A model generated the notes under the pieces. That model was not told the origin of the DNA. It did not search any database and worked only from the letters and a program-made list of their open reading frames with translations. A DNA stretch of 28,973 bases from positions 1 through 28,973 of IMG/VR virus record IMGVR_UViG_3300046507_000605. One strand, written 5' to 3'. Below, one piece after another: positions 22,763 through 28,942 of this stretch; the stretch's first letter is position 1, and each line of letters opens with the position of its first letter. The DNA is from a virus. Made by a program: the position numbers and the translations under genes.

Positions 22763-22801
22763 TACGAAAAGAAAAACGGCCTAGCTGAATGCTAGGCCGT
22801 T
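22763..22801 (-). terminator. Terminator of the agr-like operon
   Basis: On the minus strand AACGGCCTAGC pairs with GCTAGGCCGTT (11 bp, loop ATTCA), followed by TTTTTCTTTTCG. The stop codon of the LytTR gene is within the stem. Confidence 0.88.
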
Positions 22802-23533
22802 AACTATTTGGGAAACCATGCTGCGTTTGGTTCCTGGAATATCAACTGATGTTTCATCTTTAAAGCGGATGAAAGAAGCACCTGCCTGACTTTCCGTTAC
22901 ATCATCGACATAATCAATATTGACTAAAAGGCCACTATCGATCTTGACGAAGGTTGGGAACATTTCCGAACAAGTTTCCATCTTCAGGATAACTGTGAAT
23001 ATCCCTTTTGCTGTATGGAACCTCGGCACTTTGTAGTTGCTTTTAACTTCAAATGTGTCTATGTAACAAAGATCAGCAAGGGAGAACGTTCCGAAATCAT
23101 CTGTCACCTCATACCCATTCTCGTCCACAATCATCCCAACAAACTCTACGTCCAGCGGTATCTCCCGCAGCTCCTGGGTCATTGCAAGGTCGATCCGTCC
23201 TTTAGGAACCTGAATCTCTTTGGCTCCGTCGAACATGGCGATTGCTACCCCCGAGAATCTTTTCTGAGAAATATCCTTCACCTGTCTAGGATTAACCAGA
23301 TACTTCGTATCGACCGGAATGAAATTGTAACCTGAGAACAAATGCTTACAGGTTTCAAGTGTTAGCGGAACAGAATATTCATCGCCAGAGATAAGGTGGA
23401 AACCTGGTACGCAGTAATTCTTTTTGGGCCGCCAAGTTTTAATGTACTTTACCTGACCGCCCTTGAAGACTCCAAGCTTACCAGTTTCCTTATCCTTCAC
23501 AACTTCAACACCAAGAAATGTTCTTCTTATCAT
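22781..23533 (-). CDS. Regulator with two LytTR-like domains and no receiver
   Basis: 250 residues; ATG at 23533 has AAGGTG 7 bases before it (ATG at 23539 is too close). Two copies of a LytTR-like DNA-binding domain are seen, about residues 25-120 and 135-245. They share YIxTxxxKxNYxVPxFH, then a glycine, a TxETC / METC segment, and VNxxxVxD, the LytTR signature for the strand before the recognition part. There is no CheY-like receiver, unlike AgrA. Last gene of the agr-like operon, 11 bases after the AgrD-like gene. It probably binds DNA as a built-in dimer and controls phage genes in response to the peptide (inference). Confidence 0.8.
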   Translation of the reverse strand: MIRRTFLGVEVVKDKETGKLGVFKGGQVKYIKTWRPKKNYCVPGFHLISGDEYSVPLTLETCKHLFSGYNFIPVDTKYLVNPRQVKDISQKRFSGVAIAMFDGAKEIQVPKGRIDLAMTQELREIPLDVEFVGMIVDENGYEVTDDFGTFSLADLCYIDTFEVKSNYKVPRFHTAKGIFTVILKMETCSEMFPTFVKIDSGLLVNIDYVDDVTESQAGASFIRFKDETSVDIPGTKRSMVSQIVNGLAFS

Positions 23534-23544
23534 AAGCATGCACC

Positions 23545-23667
23545 TTACTTACGTTTCAGTTCTTGGGGCAGCTTTTGAGCGCCAACAACTGTCTTGTTGA
23601 TAGTTGCAAAACCATCAGCGCTTTTCTCCAGTCCTTTAGAGAACTGTTTAGCTAGTACTTTTTTCAT
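23545..23667 (-). CDS. agrD: AgrD-like signal peptide precursor, 40 residues
   Basis: A short gene starting inside the last codons of agrB (20-base overlap), with GGGGGTG before ATG. The product has the AgrD layout: an amphipathic basic helix (MKKVLAKQFSKGLEKSADG), a central segment (FATINKTVVGAQ), and the conserved tail KLPQELKRK, which corresponds to the xPxEL recognition tail cut by AgrB. There is no cysteine, so the usual thiolactone cannot form. A lactone through Ser or Thr, or a linear peptide, would be needed. Position between agrB and the regulator supports the call. Confidence 0.75.
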   Translation of the reverse strand: MKKVLAKQFSKGLEKSADGFATINKTVVGAQKLPQELKRK

Positions 23668-24205
23668 ACTTGTTCACCCCCTTCCATATTGGGACTATGA
23701 GAACACCCTGAACTAAAAAGGTAAGGGTGAGCACATCGGATTGGATAAAGATATTTGAAAAGACTAGCATCAGTGATATTACTTTCATAGCTGGATAATA
23801 TTTCGGGTTCATATTCGTCGTCTCCTCATCCATGTTTGGTGAGAATCTCAGGAAAATTAGACCCGTTATGATTGTCAATAATAGCACATATGTTCGCATT
23901 ATTTCAATATGTGGAATAGGTGCTATTAATGCTGCAGTCACGAACGAACAAAGTGTTAATGATTTGAAATGAAAACCTCCGGAGAAGAAACGAATGACAC
24001 AGAATGCAGTGAACGATACGATTGTCATTCCAAGTGAGTTAGTAAGCAAACCAGTAATGACAACAAGAACAGCTGTTAAAAAGAAATTTAGATAAACCCC
24101 TAACGCATACGCCATTACATTCACACTTGCAGTAATCCCCTCGGGATCTACAGCTTTTATTTTGTGAGCAATTGATCGGGATAGTGTCTCAATCAAATTG
24201 ACCAT
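23648..24205 (-). CDS. agrB: AgrB-type membrane peptidase
   Basis: 185 residues, with five or six membrane segments. The catalytic motif of AgrB is present: RFFSGGFHFKSLTLC, with His and Cys separated by six residues as in staphylococcal AgrB (H77, C84). It should cut and cyclise the AgrD-like peptide and help export it. The start is uncertain: ATG at 24205 touches the GAAAGG site, while TTG at 24196 has the better spacing. Overlaps the receptor gene before and the agrD gene after. Confidence 0.9.
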   Translation of the reverse strand: MVNLIETLSRSIAHKIKAVDPEGITASVNVMAYALGVYLNFFLTAVLVVITGLLTNSLGMTIVSFTAFCVIRFFSGGFHFKSLTLCSFVTAALIAPIPHIEIMRTYVLLLTIITGLIFLRFSPNMDEETTNMNPKYYPAMKVISLMLVFSNIFIQSDVLTLTFLVQGVLIVPIWKGVNKYEKSTS

Positions 24206-24860
24206 CCTTTCTGTTTGAGTAGTAATATAAGAAGCCGAATGCAATTAGTGCAAAGGGAAGGATACAGAGTGTGACAAGATGTACTATGGTGATCAGAGTC
24301 ATTGAGATAACAACAAGAACTGCAACAGTTGCTATCAGAATGTTTCTGTTTACCGGCGATAAAATGTCATCTTTAATATTGAAATCATGTGGAGGTTCAA
24401 TGATAAAGGAGAAACCTCTTCCGAATTTGTAAAATATAAAACCAATTATGTAGGATGCCGAAATGCTTGTGATCTGAATGAGACTAACTCCATATCCTTC
24501 CGCCTGGCTTATCACGTTGCTGTGAATGATTCCAGTTTGTGTCATAAACAGGATTATCAGAAGCTGCAAGGGAATATAAGCTCCGATCGCGGTAACTGTC
24601 ATGAATAAGGACCAATGCAGTTTATATTCGAATCCATATCTTAAAAACAAACTGAAGATAATCACTTGTACTGGTAAGTCAATCAGAGGAACGTCCAGTA
24701 CAATCCGAAATAAATAAGACACGATTGCGACTGTCACGCACCCAAGTACTATTGTTCGATGGTGTTTTAACATCGGTTGTCTATGTAGCTTTAACCCTAG
24801 AACAAAAACTGCTAAAGCATCAAAAACACTTAGAACAATGTACAAAACATCACTGATCAT
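24189..24860 (-). CDS. AgrC-like membrane receptor without kinase domain
   Basis: About 223 residues, nearly all membrane: seven hydrophobic segments (roughly residues 3-22, 35-57, 61-77, 82-107, 125-145, 173-195, 198-216). This matches the 6-7-TM sensor half of AgrC, but the protein stops after the last segment (YYYSNRKDGQFD). No DHp or ATPase domain is present here or in the next genes. It overlaps agrB in the same operon, so it likely senses the peptide. How it signals without a kinase is open: direct contact with the tandem LytTR protein or with a host kinase. ATG 24875 is an alternative start. Confidence 0.65.
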   Translation of the reverse strand: MISDVLYIVLSVFDALAVFVLGLKLHRQPMLKHHRTIVLGCVTVAIVSYLFRIVLDVPLIDLPVQVIIFSLFLRYGFEYKLHWSLFMTVTAIGAYIPLQLLIILFMTQTGIIHSNVISQAEGYGVSLIQITSISASYIIGFIFYKFGRGFSFIIEPPHDFNIKDDILSPVNRNILIATVAVLVVISMTLITIVHLVTLCILPFALIAFGFLYYYSNRKDGQFD

Positions 24861-25056
24861 CTCGGTCACCGTCATCCTTCTTCAGGCGATTTTCGCCGTA
24901 TTGTATCACGCTTGATTTCAAAAGAAGTAGTGCCCCACCTGAAGCTTCTCGATATGTGAGTTTGTTCATTTTACACAACCTTGATATTTGCCGTCGTGAT
25001 ACCTTAAGATGATCAGCAGCTTCTCCAGCAGTCATTACCTCATCCAAAGGATTCAA
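24850..25056 (-). CDS. Excisionase-type small HTH protein, first gene of the agr-like operon
   Basis: About 68 residues. TTG at 25056 is chosen, since AAGGAG lies 9 bases before it and the ATG at 25065 directly abuts the site. The domain is an HTH_17/MerR-like winged helix: MTAGEAADHLKVSRRQISRL, then KMNKLTYREASGGALLLLKS. The tail is acidic (KKDDGDRDDQ). It overlaps the receptor gene by 11 bases. It could bind the operators in its own promoter or act as an excision factor linked to the peptide signal (inference). Confidence 0.75.
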   Translation of the reverse strand: MNPLDEVMTAGEAADHLKVSRRQISRLCKMNKLTYREASGGALLLLKSSVIQYGENRLKKDDGDRDDQ

Positions 25057-25119
25057 TATAATCATCTCCTTTTTCCTGTATTTTCAGAACCTATGGGTTC
25101 CGATTTAGGTAAACAATAT

Positions 25120-25137
25120 GAGTCTCGTTCGAGACTC
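25120..25137. promoter_or_regulatory. Operator 1 of the agr-like operon
   Basis: GAGTCTCG-TT-CGAGACTC, arms of 8 bp. It lies downstream of the -10 of the leftward promoter and shares AGTCTC-N4-GAGACT with operator 2. Centres are 34 bp apart. Confidence 0.7.
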
Positions 25138-25146
25138 TGTAGTTAG

Positions 25147-25176
25147 ATAATACCAGTCTCAAATGAGACTTGTCAA
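25147..25176 (-). promoter_or_regulatory. Promoter of the agr-like operon with operator 2 in the spacer
   Basis: Minus-strand TTGACA, 18 bases, TATTAT, a strong sigma-A promoter. The spacer contains AGTCTC-ATTT-GAGACT on this strand (25155-25170). A repressor there would block polymerase directly. The regulator is unknown; candidates are the HTH proteins of this window or the LytTR protein. Confidence 0.8.
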
Positions 25177-26309: not shown

Positions 26310-28685
26310 TTACCTTACTGGCGCAGGGAGCTTAGTGATAAACCGTGCGTATCCATCTTTGTTCTTAATCAGATTCAAGCTGTGATGCCGTGGAAGCTTA
26401 AGTAGATCCTCCTCTGTATATGGATACAGTTCGCTGCTCAGCTCCTTATAATTGTTCTTATCGCAGCCACTAATAAGCATATAAGAGGCATTGGCTGATC
26501 GCAACTCGTCGCGGATATGCCGGATCTGGTTGAGATAGTGGGCGCTTATGATCGGCTTTGCTCCGAACTTAGCCAATCGGCTGATCTTTTCTGTGAGAAG
26601 CTTTTCTGTATTCTCGACTTGATACAACTCATCGATAATGACATTTAGTTTGGTTAGATCGTTCCGATCTGGTATCTGTTGCCCACGTATCTGGAGTGCC
26701 AGCCAAATCTTAGCTAGCCAGTAAGTCGTATAGATGTCGCGTTCTCCATCTGTTTGGAACATGGTCTCAGGCATTTTCAAGCATATCAATTGATTCTTCT
26801 GGATCTCTTGGACCAGATCGATGTTCCCAGCAGTTGATTTCTTAAGCATCTGTTCCATCCAAGTGTTCGCTTTGAGTTTGTTCAGACGATCAATTACACC
26901 AGTGATAAGGTGATCTTTAGTACCGCATAACACCGATTCAACTATCGTGTCCTTCCCAACCTTCGTTTTCACATCCTTGTATTCATCAAGCTCCTCAAGA
27001 TTATTCATGTACTCTTCTAAGTTTTCAAAATGCACTTTTGGTACTTTCATAAGAAAAGAATGTCTGGCTTGATGGTTCTGCAGCACACTGAATACATCCT
27101 TGATGCTCCCTCCTGTTATGAACACGATGTTCGCTGCACTTGTTAAGTATCGTTCCATCTTAGCTGACAGTCGTGTATCGTCAGCATTAATTGAATTGAT
27201 CAAGGCCATCAGCTGCGTGGTCTGCTTCTTCGCATTATCGTATTGGTAAAAAGGGTCTGGGGTATGAGGGACTTCATTGAATCCTAATCCTTGTATTTTC
27301 CGAGGGTCTGCACAATCAATGACCAATCTTTTATCTAAGGGGAATAGTGCTGCTACTTCAGAACTTAGCTCGCAGTTTTTAACGAAGTCAAAGATGAAGA
27401 CACTCTCACCTGCATTAATTGCGTCTCGGCTTAGGTTGCCGATTAGTGTAGATTTACCAGCACGTGTTGGTCCAATAATCGCGAGCATGAGGTTTTTATA
27501 TTCTTTATCGTTTGTAAGATACGCCTGCTGATCATGGCCGCGATATGTGCTGGTGCCAATACACATAACCCCTTGCTTCAGATCATCCGGTACTTGGGTT
27601 TCCTGTGTCTCTACCTTGTCAATGAAGTCATAGCGCTCTAACACGCCTCGACCAGGCAACTCTAGGAAGTTCTGTGCCTCCAGATCACCAACCTTATTCT
27701 TAGAAGCTGCTGGTAAATAGCGATCCGTGAATTGAAACTGCCGGCGATAAGGCTTGTAGAGCAGCCTGTTGTCTTCTGACACTGTGTCAAAGGATTGTGC
27801 TAGGCTGCGTGCTGCATTCCTCTCCCGAAGCTTATCTTCGCACTCTGCCATGACTAAAATCTGAGTATCGATCACAGTGCTTGAGGCTTTCTTGGTTGTG
27901 CTCTCGCTTACCTTACGGCCTCCGTTCAATCGGTCGAGTAATGTGTCCATATAGTCGGCGCCCGCTCCTGAGCCCTTACGATCGCCTCCTAGCGATTCAG
28001 CTATCTCCTTGAATACTGCATTCCCCGCAGCGATCAGGTAGCGGAATAGATACCAAGTTCCCATCTTATTGCGGTCTACTGGTAACCTGCGGTTGACTTT
28101 GTCAATTGTGGCCTTGTAGAGATGCCGCCAGCTGAGTTGTGAGGTAGGTATGAAGTTATACATTATGGCGAGCTTATCGCCTTCCTCAAGCAGTTCTACT
28201 GCGTTCAGGTTACTTGTGAGCAAGTCATTGTTACGGCGGTCTGTAGCCATGCTCAGGGCGTCCTCTTTCTCATAGACCAACTCATACCGTGTGGCCTTAG
28301 TGCTGAAGCCTGGGAGCTCAGAGACCTCTTCGATTGTCACCTGCCCCCATACGTCCGACAGCTTCTCACGGAGATAAGACAGATGCTGCCGCGGAACTAT
28401 GAAAAAGAATTCAACCTTTCGTTGTTCCATGTAAATGTAATAGCCAACCTTAGCCGGCAGAGTGTAGCGGTATTTTGTGCCGAGCACGAATTCTCTGCCG
28501 AATGCTTTAATCAGTTTGTGTTCTTCGATTTTGATGTTAGAGAGTGCGGTTTTGTATAACGAGGCAATTGCTCTAGCGATCTTATAGGTGCCTTGGTTGC
28601 GGACAGCATTGTTTGGTTTGATTTTGAGGTAAACATATTCAGGGTGTGAAACCTGTAGGTATTTCGTGAACGTGATGCTTTTCAT
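26310..28685 (-). CDS. HerA/VirB4/VirD4-like P-loop ATPase
   Basis: 791 residues from ATG 28685, which overlaps the previous stop by 4 bases. The first ~390 residues have no clear motif. The ATPase domain follows: Walker A GPTRAGKST (405-413), IFDFVKN (431-437), and Walker B NVIIDELYQ (681-689), then LAKFGAKPIISAHYLNQI, as in TraG/VirD4 and VirB4 relatives. Such motors move DNA or protein in conjugation, or pump DNA. The nearest group cannot be fixed by eye. A T4SS-type motor next to phage regulation genes is unusual and suggests a phage-plasmid or mobile-element mosaic (inference). Confidence 0.8.
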   Translation of the reverse strand: MKSITFTKYLQVSHPEYVYLKIKPNNAVRNQGTYKIARAIASLYKTALSNIKIEEHKLIKAFGREFVLGTKYRYTLPAKVGYYIYMEQRKVEFFFIVPRQHLSYLREKLSDVWGQVTIEEVSELPGFSTKATRYELVYEKEDALSMATDRRNNDLLTSNLNAVELLEEGDKLAIMYNFIPTSQLSWRHLYKATIDKVNRRLPVDRNKMGTWYLFRYLIAAGNAVFKEIAESLGGDRKGSGAGADYMDTLLDRLNGGRKVSESTTKKASSTVIDTQILVMAECEDKLRERNAARSLAQSFDTVSEDNRLLYKPYRRQFQFTDRYLPAASKNKVGDLEAQNFLELPGRGVLERYDFIDKVETQETQVPDDLKQGVMCIGTSTYRGHDQQAYLTNDKEYKNLMLAIIGPTRAGKSTLIGNLSRDAINAGESVFIFDFVKNCELSSEVAALFPLDKRLVIDCADPRKIQGLGFNEVPHTPDPFYQYDNAKKQTTQLMALINSINADDTRLSAKMERYLTSAANIVFITGGSIKDVFSVLQNHQARHSFLMKVPKVHFENLEEYMNNLEELDEYKDVKTKVGKDTIVESVLCGTKDHLITGVIDRLNKLKANTWMEQMLKKSTAGNIDLVQEIQKNQLICLKMPETMFQTDGERDIYTTYWLAKIWLALQIRGQQIPDRNDLTKLNVIIDELYQVENTEKLLTEKISRLAKFGAKPIISAHYLNQIRHIRDELRSANASYMLISGCDKNNYKELSSELYPYTEEDLLKLPRHHSLNLIKNKDGYARFITKLPAPVR

Positions 28686-28942
28686 TTTGCCACACCGCCC
28701 AAGAGGTATCGTATTAAAGCAACTGATGTGAACGTCAATCCTGCCCATCGGTATCCGTTCTTTAGCCCGACTGTACCGAGGATAATGAGCGCTGCACAAC
28801 CAATAAGACCAGCCCCATAACTTAACTCGTAAAGCACAGTAGCGGCTGCCTGGAGCCAATCCAGAACGTGTGCAGCCATACTGTGTGCTACTTGATCCTT
28901 GACTGCATCTCCTATGCTGTGAGGCACTTTCTCTGCAATCAT
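28682..28942 (-). CDS. Small two-span membrane protein, possibly pilin/VirB2-like
   Basis: 86 residues. A polar N-terminal helix (HSIGDAVKDQVAHSMAAHVL) is followed by two membrane segments around residues 38-58 (YELSYGAGLIGCAALIILGT) and 66-82. The layout resembles small membrane proteins encoded just before T4SS ATPases in Gram-positive elements. The frame stays open to the window edge and the ribosome site (AAAGG) is 12 bases from the ATG, so the true start may be outside. No named family. Confidence 0.65.
   Translation of the reverse strand: MIAEKVPHSIGDAVKDQVAHSMAAHVLDWLQAAATVLYELSYGAGLIGCAALIILGTVGLKNGYRWAGLTFTSVALIRYLLGGVAK

Follow-up and report, generated by a model that had tools for sequence, protein, structure and literature searches.

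A cysteine-free AgrD-type precursor with an invariant lysine in an agr-like operon of a probable Paenibacillus virus-like element

The operon and its precursor gene

The stretch of DNA analysed here (the window) comprises the 28,973 bases of an IMG/VR virus record. It encodes a phage-type integrase, a DnaB-like helicase, a RecT-like protein and regulators, and is probably a virus-like element of Paenibacillus. One transcription unit on the minus strand contains, in order, an excisionase-like gene, a seven-helix membrane protein, AgrB, the precursor as the fourth gene, a double LytTR regulator and a terminator (Table 1). Both exact GTCTCNNNNGAGAC palindromes of the window (25120-25170) overlap the promoter of this unit and are probable operators of an element-encoded repressor. 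The record is otherwise rich in phage replication genes. Upstream of the operon it also carries genes for a conjugation-type ATPase, weakly TrwB-like (phrog_5156), and a small predicted membrane protein (26310-28646 and 28682-28942, minus strand), and relatives occur in Bacillus and Terrisporobacter phages.

Table 1. Features of the agr-like transcription unit (window coordinates; a dot marks features without strand)
Feature	Position	Strand	Evidence
Intrinsic terminator closing the unit	22775..22801	-	11-pair stem, then T-run
Regulator with two LytTR DNA-binding domains, no receiver domain	22781..23539	-	PF04397, two stretches
AgrD-type precursor without Cys (main finding)	23545..23667	-	ORF, survey of relatives, codon comparison
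Predicted AgrB cut Val28/Gly29, between -6 and -5	23581..23586	-	Inferred from alignment to known AIPs (PMC12312760)
Lys25 codon AAG, position -9, invariant residue, proposed ring-closing nucleophile	23593..23595	-	Survey, ring arithmetic, codon differences
AgrB peptidase, intact His79/Cys86 dyad (RFFSGGFH...C)	23648..24205	-	PF04647; AF2 model, mean pLDDT 83
Proposed signal receptor: membrane protein predicted to have seven long helices, no kinase domain	24189..24875	-	AF2 mean pLDDT 70.5; profile match; phrog_15604
HTH_17/excisionase-like small DNA-binding protein, first gene of the unit	24850..25065	-	PF12728, 27.9 bits; excisionase PHROGs, weak
Palindrome GAGTCTCGTTCGAGACTC, second probable operator, just 3' of the promoter	25120..25137	.	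Palindrome search
Sigma-70-like promoter TTGACA-18-TATTAT, TG before -10	25147..25176	-	11/12 matches; consensus match only
Palindrome AGTCTCAAATGAGACT, sited between the -35 and -10 hexamers and probably a repressor operator	25155..25170	.	The window has just one other exact GTCTCNNNNGAGAC

The precursor gene starts with ATG, preceded at seven bases by the Shine-Dalgarno sequence GGGGGTG, and encodes MKKVLAKQFSKGLEKSADGFATINKTVVGAQKLPQELKRK, 40 residues with a basic N-terminal half, the C-terminal tail KLPQEL and no Cys. It is a real gene and no chance ORF, because it is placed between agrB and the LytTR gene, an equivalent gene is kept at the equivalent location in more than 100 relatives, and the differences among the precursors of close relatives concentrate at the third codon position (3385 versus 1459 and 723 at the other two). 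Consistently with an AgrD, it adjoins agrB and has a PxEL tail and an amphipathic leader, the amphipathicity being judged from sequence only. The initial annotation of the window had described an AgrD-like, cysteine-free 40-residue ORF with a KLPQEL tail at this site, and the ORF, its agrB neighbour and its relatives bear this out. A true precursor elsewhere in the operon was considered and rejected, since no second PxEL ORF adjoins agrB and nearly all relatives have the precursor at this site.

The neighbouring AgrB matches PF04647 with 49.8 bits (cut-off 23), and its catalytic His and Cys are seven residues apart after the GG motif. The starts of its family members suggest that translation begins at TTG 24196. 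No significant fold match to AgrB was found in the PDB, and a sequence search of solved structures gave no match for AgrB or the membrane protein. The unit is very probably a genuine agr-like signalling operon.

Related loci and the invariant lysine

Relatives of AgrB were found by tblastn on five Paenibacillus plasmids, in the Paenibacillus phage Harrison and Paisley records and in the Brevibacillus phages Davies, Emery and Abouo; at the DNA level, no relatives of the operon were found in phages. When 394 genomes in the family of a Paenibacillus popilliae genome were screened with a profile built from seven AgrB proteins, 256 gave a match, Ser and Cys classes included. More than 200 loci were fetched and their operons extracted. 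Among the tblastn relatives, the gene order of membrane protein, AgrB, precursor and LytTR regulator was constant wherever the stretch was readable, and this order is found in phages, plasmids and chromosomes.

Residues were counted from the Pro of PxE[LM] in 174 distinct AgrB loci, and the residues at -10 or -9 played no part in the choice of ORF. Lys was present at -9 in 94 loci (the lysine class), Ser at -10 in 60 and Cys at -10 in 18, with both in one (L015) and neither in one (L220, which has Cys at -11). In sister loci of Paenibacillaceae, position -10 is Ser. Among the canonical control loci of Bacilli, those that yielded a precursor had -10 occupied by Cys or Ser; the exception, L197, is a member of the second lysine group described below. 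The most distant AgrB relatives showed patterns of their own. Among the loci missed by the strict rule, Ser is found at -9 in L141, L065 combines Cys at -10 with Lys at -9 (FASVCKLTLHSPEIPQEL), a possible intermediate, and no precursor was seen in L152. In L069 (genome G391), ORF 1744-2448 joins AgrB and a lysine-type AgrD in one frame (...VVPWKEVLNLKQETARKLSKFISLTAKKASTVEKVIIGSQKLPQQLKKK).

Within the lysine class, the entropy of column -9 is zero and its Lys is the sole invariant residue of the ring region; columns -12 to -10 and -8 to -6 carry 2.4-3.3 bits. Residue -6, the predicted C-terminal residue, is hydrophobic without exception, as in known AIPs. Among close relatives, codon -9 swaps between AAA and AAG, and all 87 differences counted there are synonymous. 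A remnant gene, dead or a decoy, from which no signal is made is the least probable of the readings considered, because the ORF and this Lys are under purifying selection and the whole operon is conserved across many genomes.

In a tree of 132 AgrB proteins the lysine class falls into two main groups, and after removal of long branches it forms one clade with a support of 77. The invariance of K-9 may thus reflect one origin, and a single origin within this family of membrane protein and LytTR operons is likely. Repeated independent origins inside the family were considered and rejected, as the tree allows a single clade.

The window precursor gave no match to the TIGR04223 profile (AgrD, cyclic lactone autoinducer). 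Members of the class tested singly gave only one weak match below the cut-off (14.7 versus 19), and the Ser and Cys sister precursors scored 38-41. Since the NCBI AgrD model puts the tested members below its cut-off, lysine-class systems are probably under-annotated.

The catalytic dyad motif of AgrB is present in all 106 lysine-class loci examined for it. An acidic AgrB residue was considered as a partner of the precursor lysine. Positions 29 and 32 (window numbering) are Glu or Gln in most lysine-class proteins and Ala or Lys/Arg in the Ser class, which is suggestive across the class. In the window protein they are Asn and Ala, so the Glu enrichment is weak evidence and this candidate was set aside. 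No extra conserved base was found in lysine-class AgrB.

Proposed processing and ring chemistry

In canonical AgrD, Cys at -10 forms the ring and cleavage takes place between -6 and -5, as in CDFIM/DEVEVP of S. aureus. The window precursor has neither Cys nor Ser at the ring-closing position and therefore Lys25 is proposed as the attacker. A ring closed by Cys or Ser at -10 over four residues onto -6 has 16 atoms. A ring closed by the side-chain amine of Lys at -9 over three residues onto -6 also has 16 atoms, because the Lys side chain is three atoms longer, which equals the backbone of one residue. AIP-I is a 16-membered thiolactone (PMC4979651). Every known example in the AIP table of a recent review is ring-closed by Cys or Ser (PMC12312760). 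In Listeria, lactam analogues of AIPs can act as active agonists (PMC11297923).

The proposed pathway is as follows. AgrB would bind the amphipathic leader and the PxEL tail of the precursor and would cut between Val28 and Gly29, leaving an acyl-enzyme on Cys86. The side-chain amine of Lys25 would then attack the acyl-enzyme and release a 16-membered macrolactam, K-T-V-V, carrying an N-terminal tail. At neutral pH most of a free lysine amine carries a proton, and closure would need the help of AgrB. No recognisable site for leader removal was seen in the lysine class. The chances that AgrB cuts after Val28 and Lys25 closes this ring are about even.

The initial annotation had instead suggested a threonine lactone or a linear peptide, with Ser16, Thr22 and Thr26 as the only residues able to form an ester. 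These three are indeed present, but Ser10 had been overlooked, and the invariant residue is Lys25, which had not been considered. In favour of an ester, residues 22 and 26 of the window precursor are Thr, and position -8 is Ser or Thr in 31% of the lysine class. Against it, the rings would be 10-membered with Thr26 and 22-membered with Thr22, and the 94 lysine-class precursors share no conserved hydroxyl or thiol column. Ser, Thr or Cys occupies at most 46% of any column from -16 to -5, and ten entries, including the phage Harrison precursor, have none of the three at -14 to -6. The threonine or serine lactone was therefore dropped as a shared mechanism, and closure through Thr22 or Thr26 is considered very unlikely.

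Two further readings give the lysine another role. In the first, AgrB cuts after Val28, water hydrolyses the acyl-enzyme, and a linear signal is released; the Lys, four residues before the cut, would serve recognition by AgrB, leader removal or receptor binding. Conserved charged residues close to a cleavage site are common in peptide processing, and the lack of Cys and Ser at the ring position also speaks for a linear signal. On the other hand, AgrB retains the cyclisation dyad, cutting directly behind the Lys would leave three residues only, and a pure recognition role does not predict Lys in place of Cys in one column of the second precursor group. A linear signal is the main rival of the lactam, though less likely than not. 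In the second, the ends are joined by another closure, for example head-to-tail backbone joining after leader removal, and the Lys is a specificity residue only. Tail-less thiolactone and lactone AIPs do rearrange to homodetic cyclopeptides (PMC11297923), but this route first requires a Cys or Ser and a ring of four residues would be strained, which makes this reading improbable, if somewhat less so than the ester. In the Ser class, a signal-peptidase-like motif, small-x-Ala/Ser, lies right before the ring Ser, with Ala at -11 in 51 of 64 precursors (e.g. L103 and L079). Its use would yield a tail-less lactone that may rearrange to a homodetic ring.

The second AgrB/AgrD group (L226-L244 and L246-L266, in the family of genome G416) also has precursors without Cys. 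It comes from another family of Bacilli, probably Brevibacillaceae, since genomes with a phage Davies-like AgrB occur in the same family group. Its AgrB and precursor tail differ from those of the first group, to which the precursor is unrelated, and the precursor ends in [LM]KxGxx(Y/H)EPxPP in 18 loci. Across this group and its nearest relatives, the same column holds 18 Lys and 5 Cys. If the cut precedes YEP, a ring closed by Lys over four further residues would have 19 members, as six-residue Cys rings do, which speaks against the lactam reading; a cut one residue earlier would alter this. By comparison of sequences, the second group lends independent support to ring closure by lysine.

As an invariant Lys replaces Cys or Ser in about 100 relatives, a lysine amide may be the ring bond. 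Of the explanations for the absent cysteine, the lysine macrolactam has the most support, at about even odds, and a linear peptide comes second. The broader proposal is that AgrB proteins of Paenibacillaceae, of Paenibacillus and Brevibacillus phages and plasmids and of the second chromosomal group make lysine macrolactams, a third chemistry in at least two precursor lineages; this we put just short of an even chance. No paper on a lysine-type AgrD, or on an AgrD isopeptide or macrolactam, was found in the open-access literature searched, where absence is no proof of novelty.

Receptor, regulator and comparison with known circuits

The membrane protein has 228 residues and no Pfam domain, so the histidine kinase of an AgrCA pair is absent. 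Likewise, the regulator consists of two LytTR stretches only, and the receiver domain of such a pair is absent. No significant match to the membrane protein was found by fold search of PDB and BFVD. Its family profile matched residues about 4-213 of proteins of 406-450 residues whose genes precede agrB in other Bacilli, in the position of AgrC, and it gave zero matches to reversed sequences and to 221 AgrB proteins. These matches suggest that the membrane protein is related to the N-terminal sensor part of the AgrC-position proteins. Where scanned, the regulator in the loci with larger sensors is a full response regulator including a receiver domain. As no kinase motifs were recognisable in the C-terminal halves of the larger sensors, the loss of a working kinase is not claimed. 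For the window regulator, the second ATG (23533) fits the ribosome-binding site better. The regulators of these operons consist of LytTR domains alone. That of the window is a tandem domain duplication, and the double form occurs in 18 of the 84 lysine-class loci in which LytTR was found; in 22 lysine-class loci there was no LytTR gene within the fetched stretch.

The operon shares with staphylococcal agr the His/Cys dyad of AgrB, a short amphipathic precursor, a hydrophobic residue before the cut and the PxEL tail. In contrast, the precursor here has no Cys and has a Lys one residue later, the receptor lacks a kinase, the regulator lacks a receiver domain, and the receptor gene precedes agrB and agrD in the operon. 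The serine-lactone AIPs (the S. pseudintermedius AIP and E. faecalis GBAP/FsrD) show that a nucleophile other than Cys is possible, whereas in the lysine class the ring position holds neither Ser nor Thr. Hargreaves et al. (2014) described agr cassettes in phages Davies, Emery and Abouo, called Paenibacillus phages there, and already noted AgrC-like proteins without a kinase domain in them (PMC3901668). These Brevibacillus phages have the same operon and lysine-class precursor as the window. The word cysteine does not occur in that paper, and the missing Cys, the lysine and the LytTR gene of these phages are not discussed there.

In the LytTR regulatory systems HdrRM and BrsRM, a membrane protein restrains a stand-alone LytTR regulator without a phosphorelay (PMC6193735). 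The window likewise has a membrane protein and a receiver-less LytTR regulator in one operon. The gene order differs: the regulator gene is upstream in those systems, and in the window and its relatives the membrane protein comes first, with AgrB and AgrD between. Direct repeats like those of the LytTR regulatory systems were sought as exact 9-mers in 155 loci and were not enriched upstream of the receptor gene. By analogy with these systems, we favour a mechanism in which the membrane protein holds the LytTR regulator in check. The exported signal would be sensed by the seven-helix protein, and this kinase-less receptor would directly release or activate the LytTR protein, which would control the promoter of the element itself and possibly lysogeny or excision genes. 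Arbitrium (AimR/AimP) is similar in that temperate elements carry a peptide communication gene close to their integrase, excisionase and repressor genes. It differs in using an imported linear peptide and a cytoplasmic receptor, where the AgrB product here would be sensed at the membrane.

The operon resembles an agr circuit that has no phosphorelay and is borne by phages and plasmids near their integration genes. If the proposed ring chemistry is true, AgrB would form a lysine amide, a reaction new for this enzyme beside those giving the thiolactone and the lactone; the signal would be hydrolysis-proof, and AgrB would offer an enzymatic route to stable macrolactams.
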